Positions 5,722 through 35,790 of a DNA stretch of 64,000 nucleotides are shown here, one piece after another (position 1 is the first letter of the stretch; every line of letters begins with the position of its first letter). The notes beneath the pieces are model-generated. The model saw only the letters and a program-made list of their open reading frames with translations, did no database searches and had not been told where the DNA came from. The stretch covers positions 1,860,001 to 1,924,000 of the forward strand of contig NZ_CP062946.1 of assembly GCF_014898095.1 (NCBI RefSeq), written 5' to 3'. The translations under genes were made by a program, and so were the position numbers. This stretch comes from Thalassotalea sp. LPB0316 (GTDB lineage Bacteria > Pseudomonadota > Gammaproteobacteria > Enterobacterales > Alteromonadaceae).

Positions 5722-6513
5722 ATGAATCTTAATAAAATCGTATTAGGTGTTTCATTGGCAGTTAGCGCAAACGCGCTAGCTGCACCGCCAGCGCCGGTAA
5801 TTGACGCTAGTGGACAATCATCTACGTCGTCATCATCGAGTTACTCATCGCTATCAGTTGAGCAGCGATTACAAAACCTTGAGCGTCAGCTTAGTGTTCG
5901 TAATAAAACTCAAGTGATGATGCAACAACAACTTAATGAATTGCAAAATGAAGTTAACGAACTTCGTGGTGTCACCGAGTTACATTCGCATAAGCTTAAT
6001 CAAATTCTTGAACGTCAACGCGACTTATATCAAGAGTTAGATAAACGCGTATCTGCAGCGATGCAACCGGCTACTCCTCCTGCCGTTATCACAGCGCCAG
6101 AGGCCAGTGCGCCAGCGATAAATTACAGCTCAGACTTAACCGAGAATGAAGCTTATGATCGCGCAGTAAATATGGTGCTTAAAGACAAGCGCTACGATGA
6201 AGCAATTCCTGAATTTGAAGCCTTTAATAACAAGTACCCGAATTCTACCTATGCGCCCAATGCCCATTATTGGTTAGGTCAGTTATTATTTAATAAAGGT
6301 GAGCTAGAAAGAGCGAAAACTGAGTTTTCGATTGTCGTAAACCAGCATGAAGGGTCAAGTAAGCGCAGCGATGCATTACTTAAACTCGGTATGGTGGCAC
6401 AAAAGCAAAACGACAATGCTAGAGCCGTGGTTTTATATCAGCAATTATTGTCTGAATATCCAAACTCATCAGCTGCTCAATTAGCCAAACCACGACTAGA
6501 AAGTTTGCAGTAA
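5722..6513 (+). CDS. cpoB: Cell division coordinator CpoB (YbgF)
   Basis: A 263-residue periplasmic protein. It has a signal peptide (MNLNKIVLGVSLAVSANALA), a Ser-rich linker, a trimerising coiled coil (about 45-112, starting SVEQRLQNLERQLSVRNKTQ) and a C-terminal TPR domain (about 140-263, with AYDRAVNMVLKDKRYDEAIP). The known role is to link PBP1B/LpoB peptidoglycan synthesis to Tol energy state. It lies 12 bp after pal and is the last gene of the operon. Confidence 0.95.
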   Translation: MNLNKIVLGVSLAVSANALAAPPAPVIDASGQSSTSSSSSYSSLSVEQRLQNLERQLSVRNKTQVMMQQQLNELQNEVNELRGVTELHSHKLNQILERQRDLYQELDKRVSAAMQPATPPAVITAPEASAPAINYSSDLTENEAYDRAVNMVLKDKRYDEAIPEFEAFNNKYPNSTYAPNAHYWLGQLLFNKGELERAKTEFSIVVNQHEGSSKRSDALLKLGMVAQKQNDNARAVVLYQQLLSEYPNSSAAQLAKPRLESLQ

Positions 6514-6598
6514 TTAGCTATTATTGTTGATATTGTAATCAGTTTGTGGTCTTTTTGTGCGAACGCATGATTAAATTCAAAAAAAGCGAATTTTATTG

Positions 6599-6626
6599 TT
6601 GCACTGAAGGAAATTATCAGTATCAT
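6599..6626 (+). promoter_or_regulatory. promoter of the tRNA-Lys cluster
   Basis: TTGCAC (6599-6604) and TATCAT (6621-6626) are 16 bp apart, about 40 bp upstream of the first tRNA-Lys. The region after the -10 box is GC-rich (atgcctcgc), as in stringently controlled stable-RNA promoters. Confidence 0.5.
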
Positions 6627-6667
6627 ATGCCTCGCTTTGAACGAGTAGGGCAAAGCAAGATGGATAT

Positions 6668-6743
6668 CGGTCGTTAGCTCAGTTGGTAGAGCAGTTGGCT
6701 TTTAACCAATTTGTCGAAGGTTCAAATCCTTCACGACCGACCA
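6668..6743 (+). tRNA. tRNA-Lys (anticodon TTT), copy 1
   Basis: A complete 76-nt cloverleaf with encoded CCA. The acceptor pairs CGGTCGT with ACGACCG, the anticodon loop is CTTTTAA, and the T arm is GAAGG-TTCAAAT-CCTTC. It is identical to copies 2 and 3. Confidence 0.97.
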
Positions 6744-6786
6744 CTTCCACCAAGTAGTTGGTTTCCATCAAAAAGTAATTAGTAAT

Positions 6787-6862
6787 CGGTCGTTAGCTCA
6801 GTTGGTAGAGCAGTTGGCTTTTAACCAATTTGTCGAAGGTTCAAATCCTTCACGACCGACCA
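6787..6862 (+). tRNA. tRNA-Lys (anticodon TTT), copy 2
   Basis: Identical in sequence to copy 1 over all 76 nt including CCA. It is 43 bp downstream of copy 1 and probably co-transcribed with it. Confidence 0.97.
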
Positions 6863-6895
6863 CTTTCTTCAACTAATTACTCTTACAATATATAT

Positions 6896-6971
6896 CGGTC
6901 GTTAGCTCAGTTGGTAGAGCAGTTGGCTTTTAACCAATTTGTCGAAGGTTCAAATCCTTCACGACCGACCA
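6896..6971 (+). tRNA. tRNA-Lys (anticodon TTT), copy 3
   Basis: Identical to copies 1 and 2. Its 3' flank (ccaccttttct) resembles the flank after the tRNA-Lys fragment at 7114-7135, so that fragment looks like a decayed fourth copy. Confidence 0.97.
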
Positions 6972-7034
6972 CCTTTTCTTAACATCAAAATATCTCAAGT
7001 AATAACTACTAGTCAGGCAGAACCTGAGAAGAAG

Positions 7035-7135
7035 GTTCACAAAATTGTCTGGAACAATTTTGAACGCGCTTGCGCGGCCCGCAGGGTGAAGTACAGGATG
7101 TACGGAATAAATCCTTCACGACCGACCACCTTTCT
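7035..7135 (+). pseudogene. tRNA-Lys 3' remnant carrying a three-hairpin element in its T loop
   Basis: The sequence gaaggttca (T-arm 5' side) is followed by a roughly 70-bp structured element, then by AAATCCTTCACGACCGACCA, the exact 3' end of tRNA-Lys. The element can fold into CAAAATTGT-CTGGA-ACAATTTTG, GCGC-TT-GCGC, CCC-GCA-GGG and GTAC-AGGAT-GTAC. It is a diverged copy of the 72-bp repeat at 8687-9046, with paired base changes that keep the stems. The 5' two-thirds of this tRNA copy is missing, so it cannot make a tRNA. Confidence 0.75.
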
Positions 7136-7230
7136 AAAAGGTTTTAAGGTTTGAAAGTTATAAGGTTTTAAGGTTGACACACCAATAACACCTATTGAAA
7201 GTAGCAACATTCCAACATTCCGACATTCCA
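7133..7230. repeat. degenerate 8-bp tandem repeat tracts
   Basis: Two short tracts read in steps of eight: aaggtttt, aaggtttg, aaagttat, aaggtttt, aaggttga near 7139-7178, then aacattcc-type units at about 7204-7231. They directly follow the tRNA-Lys remnant. No gene is visible here. Confidence 0.65.
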
Positions 7231-7335
7231 ACCTAGCTTTCATTAAAGCTGATTATTGATAGACGAATATATACACTTTATACAACTGATCACGTATAAT
7301 TGGCGCCGTTTCATTTCCATGTGGTAGTTAGTTTT

Positions 7336-8376
7336 ATGAGCCAGAGCAATTTAGCTGTTAATATCGACTTTCAATTCCCGGCAAAGCCTGCGACTTTGTC
7401 AGCTGATGAAAAAGTAGCGTACAAGTCACGTATCAAATCGCTACTAAAAGAAAAAAATGCTGTTTTGATTGCTCACTATTACACCGATCCTGAAATTCAA
7501 GCACTTGCAGAAGAGACCGGCGGCTGTGTTGCCGACTCTCTAGAAATGGCTCGCTTTGGTAATCAGCATGAAGCCGATGTGTTAATCATCGCTGGTGTTA
7601 AGTTTATGGGTGAAACCGCAAAGGTATTAACGCCGGAAAAAACCGTAGTTATGCCAACGCTTGAAGCGACCTGTTCACTTGATTTAGGCTGTCCTATTGA
7701 ACAGTTTGACGCATTTTGTAATGAACACCCTGATCGCACCGTTGTCGTTTATGCCAATACTTCACCTGCTGTAAAAGCTCGTGCTGACTGGATTGTGACT
7801 TCATCATGTGCACTGGAAATTGTTGAACACTTGGATGAGCAAGGTGAAAAGATTTTGTGGGGGCCTGATCGCCATTTAGGTCATTACATTCAGAAGCAAA
7901 CGGGTGCCGATATGTTAATGTGGCAGGGCGCTTGTATTGTTCATGATGAATTTAAAACCAAAGCGCTAATCGATATGAAGAAGCTTCATCCTGATGCCGC
8001 TGTGTTAGTTCACCCTGAATCACCAGCAGAAATTGTTGAACTCGCAGATGCGGTTGGCTCTACTTCTATGCTTATTAAGGCTGCACAAGAATTACCCCAT
8101 AACAAGTTTATCGTCGCAACCGATCGCGGTATCTTTTATAAGATGCAACAACTTTGCCCTGAGAAAGAGTTTTTTGAAGCGCCAACCGCTGGCGAGGGGG
8201 CTACTTGTCGCAGCTGTGCACATTGTCCTTGGATGGCAATGAATGGCCTTAAGGCGATTGAAGAAGCGCTTATCGATCCAAAGGGTAAAGAAGTCTTTGT
8301 TAGCGATGAAGTAAGAATTGGCGCGCTTAAATCAACCAATCGCATGTTGGCGTTTACCGCGTCATTGAAAAAATAA
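7336..8376 (+). CDS. nadA: Quinolinate synthase NadA
   Basis: A 346-residue [4Fe-4S] enzyme that condenses iminoaspartate with dihydroxyacetone phosphate to quinolinate in de novo NAD synthesis. Visible family marks are [60 protein letters not shown], the PE pair in VHPES, and a C-terminal [14 protein letters not shown], which supplies cluster Cys. ATG 7336 (MSQSNLAVN) is preferred over an upstream in-frame start because it matches the family's usual start. A TATAAT lies upstream near 7286-7291. The gene is followed by a terminator. Confidence 0.96.
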
Positions 8377-8400
8377 CCAAATCAACTTATTGATAGAATA

Positions 8401-8429
8401 AAGCCTTGCTTAGCCAAGGCTTTTTTTTT
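8401..8429 (+). terminator. rho-independent terminator of nadA
   Basis: Stem AAGCCTTG/CAAGGCTT with a six-base loop, followed by nine T residues. Confidence 0.85.
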
Positions 8430-8441
8430 ACCATAGCCGCC

Positions 8442-8497
8442 CTGTAAAGCTGTAAAGTTTTTATATTTGACCTTATAGCGTTATAGCCTTATCGCAC
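8442..8497. repeat. degenerate period-8 tract upstream of tRNA-Ser
   Basis: Reading in eights gives ctgtaaag, ctgtaaag, tttttata, tttgacct, tatagcgt, tatagcct, tatcgcac. A possible TTGACC -35 box (8467-8472) for tRNA-Ser lies inside it, so the tract may carry the promoter. Confidence 0.5.
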
Positions 8498-8521
8498 TAA
8501 TACTGTATTGCAATATATTCT

Positions 8522-8612
8522 GGTGAGTTGGCTGAGTGGTTGAAGGCGCACGACTGGAACTCGTGTAAGGGTTTATAGCCCTTCGAGGATTCGAATTCCT
8601 CACTCACCGCCA
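8522..8612 (+). tRNA. tRNA-Ser (anticodon GGA)
   Basis: A 91-nt class II tRNA with a long variable arm (GTAAGGGTTTATAGCCCTTC). The acceptor pairs GGTGAGT with ACTCACC, the anticodon loop is CTGGAAC, and CCA is encoded. A terminator follows at once. A second copy of its 3' end is at 9046-9065. Confidence 0.96.
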
Positions 8613-8618
8613 TATCTT

Positions 8619-8651
8619 AAAAGCCCATGTAATTTTTACATGGGCTTTTTT
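8619..8651 (+). terminator. terminator after tRNA-Ser
   Basis: Stem AAAAGCCCATGTAA/TTACATGGGCTTTT with a T run. A similar but diverged hairpin at 9069-9102 follows the second tRNA-Ser 3' end. Confidence 0.85.
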
Positions 8652-8680
8652 ATCGGTGAACAAAAAGGAATGAGAATCAG

Positions 8681-9046
8681 ATTCGACAAAAATGTCTGGA
8701 ACATTTTTGAACGCGCTTGCGCGGCCCCAAAAGGGTGGAGGGCAGGACGCCCGGCATACAAAAATGTCTGGAACATTTTTGAACGCGCTTGCGCGGCCCC
8801 AAAAGGGTGGAGGGCAGGACGCCCGGCATACAAAAATGTCTGGAACATTTTTGAACGCGCTTGCGCGGCCCCAAAAGGGTGGAGGGCAGGACGCCCGGCA
8901 TACAAAAATGTCTGGAACATTTTTGAACGCGCTTGCGCGGCCCCAAAAGGGTGGAGGGCAGGACGCCCGGCATACAAAAATGTCTGGAACATTTTTGAAC
9001 GCGCTTGCGCGGCCCCAAAAGGGTGGAGGGCAGGACGCCCGGCATA
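8681..9046. repeat. five tandem copies of a 72-bp structured repeat
   Basis: The motif ATGTCTGGAACATTTTTGAA begins at 8692, 8764, 8836, 8908 and 8980, exactly 72 bp apart, with near-perfect identity. Each unit can form CAAAAATGT-CTGGA-ACATTTTTG, GCGC-TT-GCGC, CCC-AAAA-GGG and GGGC-AGGAC-GCCC. Because 72 is a multiple of three, several frames stay open on both strands; these are artefacts. The array starts after gattcga and ends at aattcctc, which are the two sides of the tRNA-Ser T loop. It is a tandem expansion of the single element at 7044-7114. Confidence 0.9.
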
Positions 9047-9065
9047 ATTCCTCACTCACCGCCAT
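9046..9065 (+). pseudogene. tRNA-Ser 3'-end remnant
   Basis: AATTCCTCACTCACCGCCA repeats the 3' end of the tRNA-Ser gene. Similarity continues into the flank and its terminator, so this looks like the tail of a second tRNA-Ser gene whose 5' part has been replaced by the 72-bp repeat array. Confidence 0.75.
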
Positions 9066-9068
9066 ATT

Positions 9069-9102
9069 AAAAGCCCGTGCAAATATTACGCGGGCTTTTT
9101 TG
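9069..9102 (+). terminator. second tRNA-Ser-type terminator
   Basis: Stem AAAGCCCGTG/ACGCGGGCTTT (one imperfect pair) with a T run. It is a diverged duplicate of 8619-8651. Confidence 0.75.
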
Positions 9103-9144
9103 TTGGCAACTCGGTAGAATGAGAACTAGGCTAACCACTGCAGC

Positions 9145-10080
9145 TTACTCAAGATTAACAGGATTATATTCGCTACAAACCTCTAGTACGAGCTCTCTGA
9201 TCCAGCGGTTTGATTTCAAGTGTTCAACACTCCAATGCCAGTTGATATAGGCATGCGTTTTATCGAGTTTAAACGGAGGTTTAAACCAAATGTAATCGCT
9301 TTGATTATTCAGTGTTTTGATCGTAATCCCCGGAACAATACACAAATGATCAGTCGCTTTAACGATATCAACAATATTGTCGAAATTTGAACTGGTATAT
9401 TTTATCTCTCTGTCGAGCGTCATTTCTTTTATTGCGTATTGAATTGGGTAAACATTATTTTCTCTAGGTCTTAATACTGCATGTGTTTCACCGAGAAAAT
9501 CAGATAGGGTTATATGAGACTTACCAGCAAGTCTAGGGTGATCTTTACGGGCAAGAATATACATATCGTCGGTAAACAAGATTTTGTGATAACAGTCCTC
9601 TGATTCAATAGGCACATAGTCCAGGTGCAAATCATATTCCTTTTCTCGCAGTGCTCTTTCTGGGTGGGTTAATACATCATTGCTAATCGTTAAGGAAGCA
9701 TGAGGTGCTAATTGTGCAACTTTAACTGCTAACTGTCTTAAAAAATAAGAATTTTCGACACCCGTAATATTTAATTTGTAATTAAGTTTTGCTTTATTTG
9801 GATCAAATGTATGCATGTCGGGCAAAGTTAAAGAGACATTATTAAGCATGTCTTCAATAACCGGGGCTATTGCCATGGCTTTCAACGTCGGCATCATTTG
9901 GCCTGACTTTCTTTCAAATAACGGGTCGTTGTATACCGAGCGCAGGCGCTTTAAGGCTTGCGATACCGCAGGTTGAGACATTCCTAAGTTTTCAGCTGCA
10001 TGGCTTAAGTTTCGCTCGTGCATTAGTGCCGTAAAAATAGACAATAAATTTAAATCTATATTTCTTAAGTATTGTTTCAT
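9145..10080 (-). CDS. LysR-family transcriptional regulator
   Basis: A 311-residue regulator. The N-terminal winged HTH (about 6-65) reads NLLSIFTALMHERNLSHAAE then MSQPAVSQALKRLRSVYNDP, typical of LysR proteins. An effector-binding domain follows at about 92-300. It is divergent from the sulfatase gene, with about 130 bp between the starts and a palindrome at 10103-10119 near its own start. LysR proteins often control a divergent neighbour, so it may regulate the sulfatase. The ligand is unknown. Confidence 0.9.
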   Translation of the reverse strand: MKQYLRNIDLNLLSIFTALMHERNLSHAAENLGMSQPAVSQALKRLRSVYNDPLFERKSGQMMPTLKAMAIAPVIEDMLNNVSLTLPDMHTFDPNKAKLNYKLNITGVENSYFLRQLAVKVAQLAPHASLTISNDVLTHPERALREKEYDLHLDYVPIESEDCYHKILFTDDMYILARKDHPRLAGKSHITLSDFLGETHAVLRPRENNVYPIQYAIKEMTLDREIKYTSSNFDNIVDIVKATDHLCIVPGITIKTLNNQSDYIWFKPPFKLDKTHAYINWHWSVEHLKSNRWIRELVLEVCSEYNPVNLE

Positions 10081-18621: not shown

Positions 18622-18836
18622 TTACAGCATTACAGCATTACAGCATTACAGCATTACAGCATTACAGCATTACAGCATTACAGCATTACAGCATTACAGC
18701 ATTACAGCATTACAGCATTACAGCATTACAGCATTACAGCATTACAGCATTACAGCATTACAGCATTACAGCATTACAGCATTACAGCATTACAGCATTA
18801 CAGCATTACAGCATTACAGCATTACAGCATTACAGC
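18622..18836. repeat. perfect 8-bp tandem repeat (ttacagca), about 27 copies
   Basis: Twenty-six full units plus seven bases of a next one, without a single mismatch. Eight is not a multiple of three, so all frames read through and give spurious proteins with an ITALQHYS period. Perfect identity implies recent slippage expansion; copy number is likely to vary between strains or to be mis-assembled. Confidence 0.97.
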
Positions 18837-22683: not shown

Positions 22684-23052
22684 CTTTAAATAGAACGTCA
22701 TATCCGAAAAGGAGATTCCCGCTAACAACATGCGGGAATGACGGGAAAAACCGAGCACTAAATAATAAATCGTCATACCCGATTAGTCAGGTATCTATCA
22801 ATAGTAACGTCATACCCGAGCAGTCGGGTATCTCTATGCCGCATATCCCCCACAGGGAGATTCCCGCTAACAGCATGCGGGAATGACGGGAAAAACCGAG
22901 CACTAAATAATAAATCGTCATACCCGAGTAGTCGGGTATCTCTATGCCGTATATCCCCCGCAGGGAGATTCCCGCTAACAGCATGCGGGAATGACGCGAA
23001 AAACCGAGCACTACATAATAAATCGTCATACCCGAGTAGTCGGGTATCTTTA
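22684..23052. repeat. array of two alternating palindromic repeats between clpX and lon
   Basis: Hairpin A (tacccgagtagtcgggta type) occurs four times and hairpin D (attcccgctaacagcatgcgggaat) three times, joined by conserved linkers such as accgagcactaaataataaa. The main unit repeats with a period of about 108 bp (gggaga at 22855 and 22963). No protein gene is seen; frames here are artefacts. Confidence 0.88.
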
Positions 23053-31734: not shown

Positions 31735-32175
31735 AGCCGTCGTTTCCAGAGTTTACGTCATTACCGCGAATACCTACATGGATGTAGCTAAGTAGAATCA
31801 TGCAGGGAGCAATTATCGAGGCGGTAATATCTGACCCTTCACCGTCATTACCGCGGAGGCGGTAATCTCAAAACAAGGCACTAAACGCTTAAAGATACCC
31901 GACTTCTCGGGTATGACGTGTTTAATTTCCCGTCATTACCGCGGAGGCGGTAATCTCAAAACAAGGCACTAAACGCTTAAAAATACCCGACTTCTCGGGT
32001 ATGACGTGTTTAATTTCCCGTCATTACCGCGGAGGCGGTAATCTCAAAAGCAAGGCGCTAAACGCATAAAGATACCCGACTTCTCGGGTATGACGTGTTT
32101 AATTTCCCGTCATTACCGCGGAGGCGGTAATCTCAAAAGCAAGGCGCTAAACGCATAAAGATACCCGACTTCTCG
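31735..32175. repeat. palindromic repeat array, 88-bp units, left part
   Basis: One long composite hairpin C (about 31757-31832) is followed by four tandem units starting gtcatta at 31844, 31932, 32020 and 32109. Each unit has hairpin B (attaccgcggaggcggtaat) and hairpin A (tacccgacttctcgggta). The fourth unit is cut in the middle of hairpin A by the IS110 element. The array resumes at about 33537. Confidence 0.92.
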
Positions 32176-35084: not shown

Positions 35085-35790
35085 GGCCTTCGCCGCAATG
35101 ACGGGAGGTAGGTATGGATTCTACCGTCATTAACGCGTATACCTATATGGCTATAGGTAAGTAGAATAATGCAGGAGCAATTATCGAGGCGGCAATCTCC
35201 AGACCTTACCGTCATTACCGCGTAGGCGGTAATCTCCTCTTTTACAGCACAAAGATACCCGACTACTCGGGTATGACTCACTTATCAGCGCACAAAGATA
35301 CCCGACTACTCGGGTATGACTCATTTATCAGCGCACAAAGATACCCGACTACTCGGGTATGACTCACTTATCAGCGCACAAAGATACCCGACTACTCGGG
35401 TATGACTCACTTTTTAGGGCACAAAGATACCCGACTACTCGGGTATGACTCATTTATCAGCGCACAAAGATACCCGACTACTCGGGTATGACTCACTTAT
35501 CAGCGCACAAAGATACCCGACTACTCGGGTATGACTCACTTTTTAGGGCACAAAGATACCCGACTACTCGGGTATGACTCACTTATCAGCGCACAAAGAT
35601 ACCCGACTACTCGGGTATGACTCACTTTTTTGGATACAAAGATACCCGACTACTCGGGTACGACTCACTTTTTAGGACACAAAAATACCCGATTGCTCGG
35701 GTATGACTAAAATATTATTACCAGCGAATACCTGTATGAATGCAGGGAAGTAAAACAATCTAGGAGCAACTGTCGAGGCGGGTATCTATT
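35085..35790. repeat. exact 43-bp tandem array of a palindrome between serA and rpiA
   Basis: Hairpin A (gatacccgactactcgggta) starts at 35254, 35297, 35340, 35383, 35426, 35469, 35512, 35555, 35598, 35641 and 35684: eleven copies at an exact 43-bp period. Linkers are of a few types (cttatcagcgcacaaa, cttttTagggcacaaa). Upstream lie a composite hairpin C (about 35127-35200) and hairpin B, and downstream a degraded C copy (about 35714-35785). Spacers are conserved, so it is not CRISPR. Confidence 0.95.

Follow-up and report, generated by a model that had tools for sequence, protein, structure and literature searches.

Judged from its sequence and predicted structure, the five-copy array that follows a tRNA-Ser(GGA) gene of Thalassotalea sp. 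LPB0316 belongs, together with RrA/RrB/RrF and rtT of Escherichia coli, to the tRNA-linked repeats (TLRs), here in a tandem form with five copies. One type of TLR has been shown to bind the global regulator CsrA, and by this kinship the array is probably a CsrA-binding RNA. The explanation that we prefer and consider likely is that of a terminator-gated, tRNA-coupled, putative CsrA-binding RNA that has been amplified fivefold.

The array and its flanking tRNA genes

The window, that is, the whole 64,000-nucleotide stretch of DNA that was analysed, covers positions 1860001-1924000 of a 3.55-Mb one-contig genome, and the features of the tRNA-Ser and tRNA-Lys loci described below all lie on its forward (+) strand. 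Tandem Repeats Finder reports a repeat at 8686-9046 with a period of 72, 5.0 copies and 100% matches. With the unit borders set by eye, five identical copies, each also recognised by our covariance model, occupy 8686-8757, 8758-8829, 8830-8901, 8902-8973 and 8974-9045, which confirms the five-copy, 72-bp array described in an earlier, sequence-only reading and places the array proper at 8686-9045. The core of each copy consists of four hairpins, which in the first copy are H1 (8687-8709, loop CTGGA), H2 (8712-8723), H3 (8724-8736) and H4 (8740-8752, loop AGGAC).

The array is preceded by a complete tRNA-Ser(GGA) gene (8522-8612; ARAGORN and Rfam) and followed by a second copy of the last 19 nt of that tRNA (9046-9064, AATTCCTCACTCACCGCCA; BLAST to tRNAs), which is identical to 8594-8612 and starts in the T-loop, a hallmark of TLRs. 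It had been proposed that the array replaces the 5′ part of a second tRNA-Ser gene; a 3′ part is indeed present, but ARAGORN finds only one tRNA-Ser at the locus, so the ‘second’ gene is a 19-nt 3′ remnant. Two terminator-like hairpins with T runs, both recognised by eye, frame the repeats, one resembling a T1 terminator in the gap between tRNA and array (8620-8652) and one resembling T2 after the remnant (9069-9101). Neither is in the list produced by an automatic terminator scan, in the case of 8620-8652 perhaps because the stem uses part of the T run, and a scan of the + strand of 6500-9250 found no promoter-like site. The 5′ flank of the array (8655-8684) contains GGTGA (8655-8659) and AGGAAT (8666-8671), which in predicted folds can pair with TCACC and ATTCCT of the 3′ remnant, and a further predicted hairpin, H0 (GAAT/ATTC, 8674-8684), which appears in folds of 8655-9066 and of the flank plus the last copy.

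A single related copy lies upstream, after three tRNA-Lys(TTT) genes (6668-6743, 6787-6862 and 6896-6971, together 6668-6971; ARAGORN). It had been placed at 7044 and is real, although its true span is 7039-7108; it is preceded by GAAGGTTC, has the loops CTGGA in H1 and AGGAT in H4, and is followed by an identical 20-nt copy of the tRNA-Lys 3′ end (7109-7128; BLAST to tRNAs). Searched with the covariance model at E-values up to 5, the window yields exactly six copies, the five of the array and this one. Tandem arrays of other kinds are also found in the window: an 8-bp unit (TTACAGCA) that is repeated perfectly about 27 times at 18622-18836, downstream of a tRNA-Pro/Arg/His/Pro cluster, further 8-bp arrays at 630-748 and 7138-7175, and, at 22808-23049, 31842-32175 and 35247-35708, arrays whose units measure 43-108 bp and have inverted repeats of the GGGTA type.

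Kinship with rtT and RrB

The covariance model, termed R1, was built from 27 sequences and has 21 pairs. E. coli has ten TLR loci; with filters off, the model was run on two of these and recognised both: RrB is matched with 69.1 bits (E 8e-17), and at the rtT locus of E. coli K-12 the three rtT repeats are the top three matches (20.9, 20.5 and 19.5 bits). The Rfam RtT model (RF00391, gathering cut-off 45 bits) gives no match to the copies in the window. In the same genome it has one match at E ≤0.01, the tRNA-Tyr copy, which at 28.0 bits is below the cut-off; it reaches 45.2 bits, just above the cut-off, in a relative (locus L042), and of 114 genomes of the class it matches 24 at E ≤0.01 and five above the cut-off. 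The R1 matches to RrB and rtT, together with the RtT matches to relatives, place the array in the TLR family by homology of sequence and structure to known members. In addition, H4 of the array (GGGCAGGACGCCC) is identical, letter for letter, to H4 of RrB. The sequence-only reading had noted that the arrangement recalls rtT and had taken the sequences to be unrelated; the shared arrangement stands, but the likeness goes beyond arrangement to homology and the two are therefore not unrelated. Plain BLAST of the Lys copy against E. coli matched one of 5426 genomes, on a plasmid, and the covariance model was needed to trace this kinship.

The E. coli TLR set is given as 22 copies at ten loci with 18-19 bp of 3′-end identity (PMC8144298). 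In rrnB of E. coli K-12 (L291, 289-363), the repeat is located inside the T1-T2 region, which is described as widely used on plasmids (PMC8144298).

Covariation and folding of the hairpins

The stem differences that had been pointed out between the array and the single copy hold on inspection: the first stem reads CAAAAATGT/ACATTTTTG in the array and CAAAATTGT/ACAATTTTG in the Lys copy, with one pair flipped, and the second reads GGGC/GCCC versus GTAC/GTAC, with two pairs altered on both sides and the loops AGGAC and AGGAT. Two copies alone are too few to prove covariation, but it is established by a larger alignment. In 141 rows (128 distinct sequences), an alignment that was fitted to the model's own structure and leans towards that structure, 97.0% of 2586 cells pair and 615 cells are changed on both sides, as compared with 166.7 ± 17.5 in 500 shuffles, and control versions in which the structure was slid are paired in 28.0-41.7%. 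Absence of covariation from a larger alignment had been named beforehand as the outcome that would speak against selection on structure; covariation is present, 20 of the 21 pairs having changed on both sides, and selection on the hairpins, as proposed earlier, is strongly supported.

Since most of the 27 sequences behind R1 were taken from a list preselected for pairing in H1, H1 pairing is inflated in them. Within the best 109 of the 141 rows (96 distinct sequences), H1 comprises 851 Watson-Crick, 4 G-T, 1 A-C and 8 other cells (864 in all) and H4 comprises 373, 4, 1 and 1 (379 in all), and G-T is found in 4 of 383 cells of H2, 35 of 382 cells of H3 and, for comparison, 15 of 469 cells of tRNA acceptor stems. 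H1 and H4 are thus strongly kept, yet through fewer G-T steps than in tRNA. The balance of G-T against A-C rests on few cells, namely 4 versus 1 in both H1 and H4 in the best 109 rows and 6 versus 5 (H1) and 4 versus 4 (H4) in all 141 rows. Such a scarcity of G-T pairs is unusual for a constraint acting on RNA only; the CsrB-type loops described below and the published binding of RrB to CsrA favour RNA over single-stranded DNA as the selected form.

The folding energy is not striking when compared with shuffles (z of -1.59 for a single unit of the array; z of -0.54 for the Lys copy when its tail is included). In folds of the full array, pairing is only 0.19-0.21 for H1, because identical arms pair between copies, and 0.92-0.94 for H4, and H4 is at 0.15 in an isolated single unit and at 0.01 in a 91-nt stretch of a 5S copy. 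The whole expected shape is obtained when one copy is folded with the 5′ flank and the 3′ remnant (H1 0.95, H4 0.72); the corresponding values are 0.99 and 0.85 for the Lys copy and 0.99 and 1.0 for RrB.

GGA loops and the probable link to CsrA

GGA is present in the H1 loop of 95 and in the H4 loop of 91 of the 96 distinct sequences. In H4, C-AGGAT-G (38), C-AGGAA-G (14) and C-AGGAC-G (13) are the most frequent loops, so that H4 is mostly of the form C-AGGAN-G, the loop letters of CsrB hairpins. Hairpins of this H4 type with a stem of at least four pairs number five in the array and two in the rest of the window, one on each strand. The array has ten GGA hairpins in 360 nt, and in the family the GGA motifs of H1 and H4 are spaced 38-51 nt apart; a CsrA dimer is reported to bridge GGA sites 10-63 nt apart (PMC3856055), and, as expected of a CsrB-like RNA, the array carries several GGA hairpin loops at such distances. 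The genome encodes csrA and also contains a CsrB-like candidate (40 bits, under the Rfam cut-off of 71) with 22 GGA motifs, including C-AGGAT-G and C-AGGAA-G. Across 15 CsrB candidates selected from the 39 matches listed, 46 of 93 GGA hairpins have an H4-type loop, and one candidate has none. The array itself is not among the three matches of the Rfam CsrB model (RF00018) in its genome at E ≤1, all of which are below the cut-off.

The two GGA loops tend to be present or absent together. In 20 copies matched by the RtT model, one per genome and scored by eye from 20 of the 44 RtT places listed, ten have GGA in both loops, three have it in H1 alone, none has it in H4 alone and seven are without it in either loop (Fisher p 0.003, not corrected for relatedness). 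Among copies in tRNA T-loops, 35 of 38 have both GGA loops, in a set chosen with a GGA-favouring model. RrB is reported to bind CsrA in vitro with a KD of about 100 nM, and with three GGA motifs changed no CsrA shift was seen in the tested range (PMC8144298). The same source gives the 19 tRNA TLRs of E. coli a CsrA score under 0.01, and this, together with rtT, which is without GGA loops, indicates that CsrA binding is not universal in the family. It also reports only modest effects of RrA/B/F deletion and RrB overexpression in E. coli and suggests that only the rrn copies have affinity for CsrA (PMC8144298); judged by the loops of the tRNA-linked copies described here, the latter looks like a peculiarity of E. 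coli.

Whether the element is nested within csrA-bearing genomes was considered among 185 sampled genomes, and such nesting was not found: R1 matches occur in 8 of 26 genomes without a csrA match versus 67 of 159 with csrA (Fisher p 0.39). The eight are G141, G146, G202, G209, G226, G232, G256 and G296, of which G146 is 100% and the others 73-96% complete. As a separate observation, csrA is followed on its own strand by a copy at a distance of 0.13-1.2 kb in at least 11 of 77 genomes with an R1 or RtT match (G259, G278, G148, G266, G176, G142, G195, G168, G220, G178 and G144), which may only reflect a tRNA-Ser gene after csrA, but could give feedback.

Distribution and insertion sites

R1 has 18 matches in its own genome at E <0.01. 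All but two of them were assigned to sites after tRNA-Lys, tRNA-Ser(GGA), tRNA-Ser(TGA) or tRNA-Tyr, within three 5S copies judged degenerate by eye, next to 5S on the opposite strand, or antisense to tRNA-Phe copies. One site is present in this genome in both an empty and a filled version: AGGGTTC-AAATCCTTCAATTCC is uninterrupted in the middle of locus L023 and has a copy in between in L022. Further afield, R1 matches 89 of 118 genomes in a sample of the family (E ≤0.001) and 75 of 185 in a sample of the gammaproteobacterial class (E ≤1e-4).

When the flanks of the best 115 rows (106 distinct sets) were compared with 68 tRNAs, the right flank aligned to the final 18-20 nt of a tRNA, as far as the tRNA terminus, in at least 30 of the 106 sets, a few of them with mismatches. 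A tRNA-Ser 5′ end that extends to the D-loop is present in six sets and a tRNA-Glu 5′ part that reaches or nears the T-loop in three; an antisense position relative to tRNA-Phe is seen in three. In the 71 of 141 matches listed and the flank sets of the best 115 rows, junctions at the tuf 3′ end read CCGTG before AAC or CAC, and those in 5S mostly GTG before A (both by eye). One copy (L233) adjoins a tmRNA gene and ends in CCACCA, and some copies are without any tRNA in the fetched flanks. Directly adjacent but non-identical copies are seen at L142, L143, L123 and L115, so a tandem arrangement does not always stem from a recent duplication. Other short hairpin insertions, which have ATCC-type loops and may represent a second family in opposite orientation, are also present in the degenerate 5S copies of this genome that carry the repeat (L018, L019 and L020, near 1776748, 513039 and 11929). 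NZ_CP080427.1 and 163 other Salmonella plasmid records contain a partial match to the repeat; in the two records with feature tables consulted, this match is flanked by genes of the yersiniabactin region and is located upstream of ybtA.

Several candidates for the origin or the mobiliser of the repeat were considered and set aside. The repeat has no match among phages. Of 59 family genomes, 33 encode an IS200/IS605 or RAYT Y1 transposase, but a copy is absent from all of the 30 Y1 loci, and the enzyme is missing from copy-rich genomes such as G006, G007, G008, G054 and G068, as it is from the genome studied here (G000). A recent burst of single-element transposition in G255 was dismissed on the grounds that the copies share flanks.

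A proposed mechanism and its alternatives

In the model that we favour, a fraction of the tRNA-Ser transcripts would read through the first terminator, and the trailer RNA, cut free at the copy of the tRNA 3′ end, would bind CsrA dimers via paired GGA loops. The outcome would be a CsrA-sequestering RNA whose amount tracks tRNA transcription, and the fivefold reiteration, with its ten hairpins, would make it resemble CsrB. A wider and more doubtful proposal, offered as a joint reading and tentatively in all its parts, is that RtT, RrA/B/F and many unnamed repeats form a single family of mobile CsrA-binding RNA cassettes that spans the Gammaproteobacteria; these would insert in loops of the most abundant RNA genes (tRNAs, 5S, tuf and perhaps tmRNA) and, across the genome, couple CsrA activity to the output of tRNA and rRNA; tandem reiteration would grow new CsrB-like sponges, as at 8686-9045, and the tRNA-linked copies of E. 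coli would be relics without their former CsrA loops.

The strongest competitor, to which we give somewhat less than even credence, treats the repeat as primarily a mobile DNA element, the hairpins of which would be recognised as DNA by an unknown recombinase; insertion would take place before A-runs in loops of stable RNA genes, spread would be selfish, and any RNA role would be secondary or local. It overlaps with the CsrA explanation, and our confidences in the two are not meant to sum to one. Similar junctions recur at unrelated sites (many tRNA T-loops, the tRNA-Ser D-loop, a tRNA-Gly 5′ part, the tuf 3′ end, 5S and antisense tRNA-Phe), and these junctions and the scatter of copies are better explained by mobile DNA than by CsrA binding. 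The filled and empty versions of one site (L022 and mid-L023), the long tRNA-Glu 5′ parts that reach or near a copy in the T-loop (L119 and L125), the copies without a tRNA in their flanks, the scarcity of G-T pairs and the presence of the element in genomes without a csrA match point in the same direction. However, the genome contains no Y1 transposase (PF01797), R1 has 0 matches in the 30 Y1 loci, and the repeated copies examined in G255 and G123 share flanks and thus spread within bigger repeats, not alone; moreover, neither the CsrB-type loops nor their joint loss would be predicted.

A role in RNA processing or termination, with the 3′-end copy and the hairpins guiding RNase E/P or protecting tRNA 3′ ends and the GGA motifs being of minor importance, appears unlikely to be the main function. 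It would fit the recurrence of the tRNA's last 18-20 nt as right flank, the recognition by RNase E proposed for the copy at the RrB 3′ end (PMC8144298) and the Rfam RtT model, in which the left flank pairs with the 3′ end, but it leaves unexplained why GGA loops are conserved on freely changing stems and why five cores share one 3′-end copy. Pairing between the flanks exceeds that of mismatched pairs in 26 of 38 sets (Wilcoxon p 0.0013); this complementarity is weak in the family, the Lys copy is not above mismatched pairs, and an outer stem common to all tRNA-linked copies was rejected, being better than mismatched pairs in 26 of 38 only and kept as a weak feature. For the array in the window, the test took the preceding copy as left flank and is uninformative. 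Finally, five identical copies suggest a recent and possibly neutral amplification, and the flanking tRNA copy is a remnant, so that the array might be decaying duplication debris kept by chance; we regard this as very improbable, and for the family it is contradicted by the pairing kept in 97.0% of cells over 128 distinct sequences.

Significance and comparison with known systems

Our literature search found only PMC8144298 as later work on tRNA-linked repeats and, for the family outside enteric bacteria, nothing beyond PMC4986893, which in the parts covered describes RtT-family RNAs beside tRNA genes in Pasteurellaceae that are visible on northern blots; Rudd 1999 and Bosl and Kersten are outside this scope. 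Within it, four features appear to be undescribed: the class-wide extent of the family (75 of the 185 sampled gammaproteobacterial genomes), CsrB-type GGA loops on tRNA-linked copies (those of E. coli score as non-binders), the junctions that recur in the T- and D-loops of tRNAs, in tuf and in 5S, and a tandem array of five cores. The findings unite rtT with the small RNAs located between the terminators of rrnB, E. coli features that Rfam keeps apart, in one widespread sequence family. If the array is expressed, it offers a natural test of the growth coupling of CsrA control via tRNA transcription and of the way in which a CsrB-like RNA can arise by the copying of one small module.

The array shares with RrA/RrB/RrF the four-hairpin core, GGA in H1 and H4, a position between two terminators and an end formed by a copy of the 3′ end of the upstream RNA, and its layout of tRNA, terminator-like hairpin, repeat, 3′-end copy and second terminator-like hairpin (both hairpins read by eye) matches the E. 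coli order 5S-T1-rrB-T2. In contrast to RrB, a single copy after 5S rRNA for which CsrA binding has been measured, it consists of five tandem cores after tRNA-Ser and is a putative CsrA binder. The rtT repeats (RttR) of tyrT-tyrV have the same order of parts (GATGAGAA..GGTTCG, hairpins, CCCGAAGGGCGAAG, GAGTAATCC and a 19-nt tRNA 3′ end), whereas they are without GGA loops and each unit, reportedly 178 bp long according to the title of a 1978 reference, has its own 3′-end copy. CsrB/CsrC and, according to PMC5864184, Aln1a-c of Alteromonas likewise carry many GGA motifs in one RNA, and the CsrB candidates have C-AGGAN-G hairpin loops as well; these, however, are separate sRNA genes and not tRNA trailers, and the array has no match to the Rfam CsrB model. 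As a regulatory RNA that would be cut from a tRNA operon transcript, the array is also akin to the tRNA trailer sponge 3′ETS-leuZ, which, unlike the activity proposed here, sponges other sRNAs by base pairing and not CsrA (PMC8144298).
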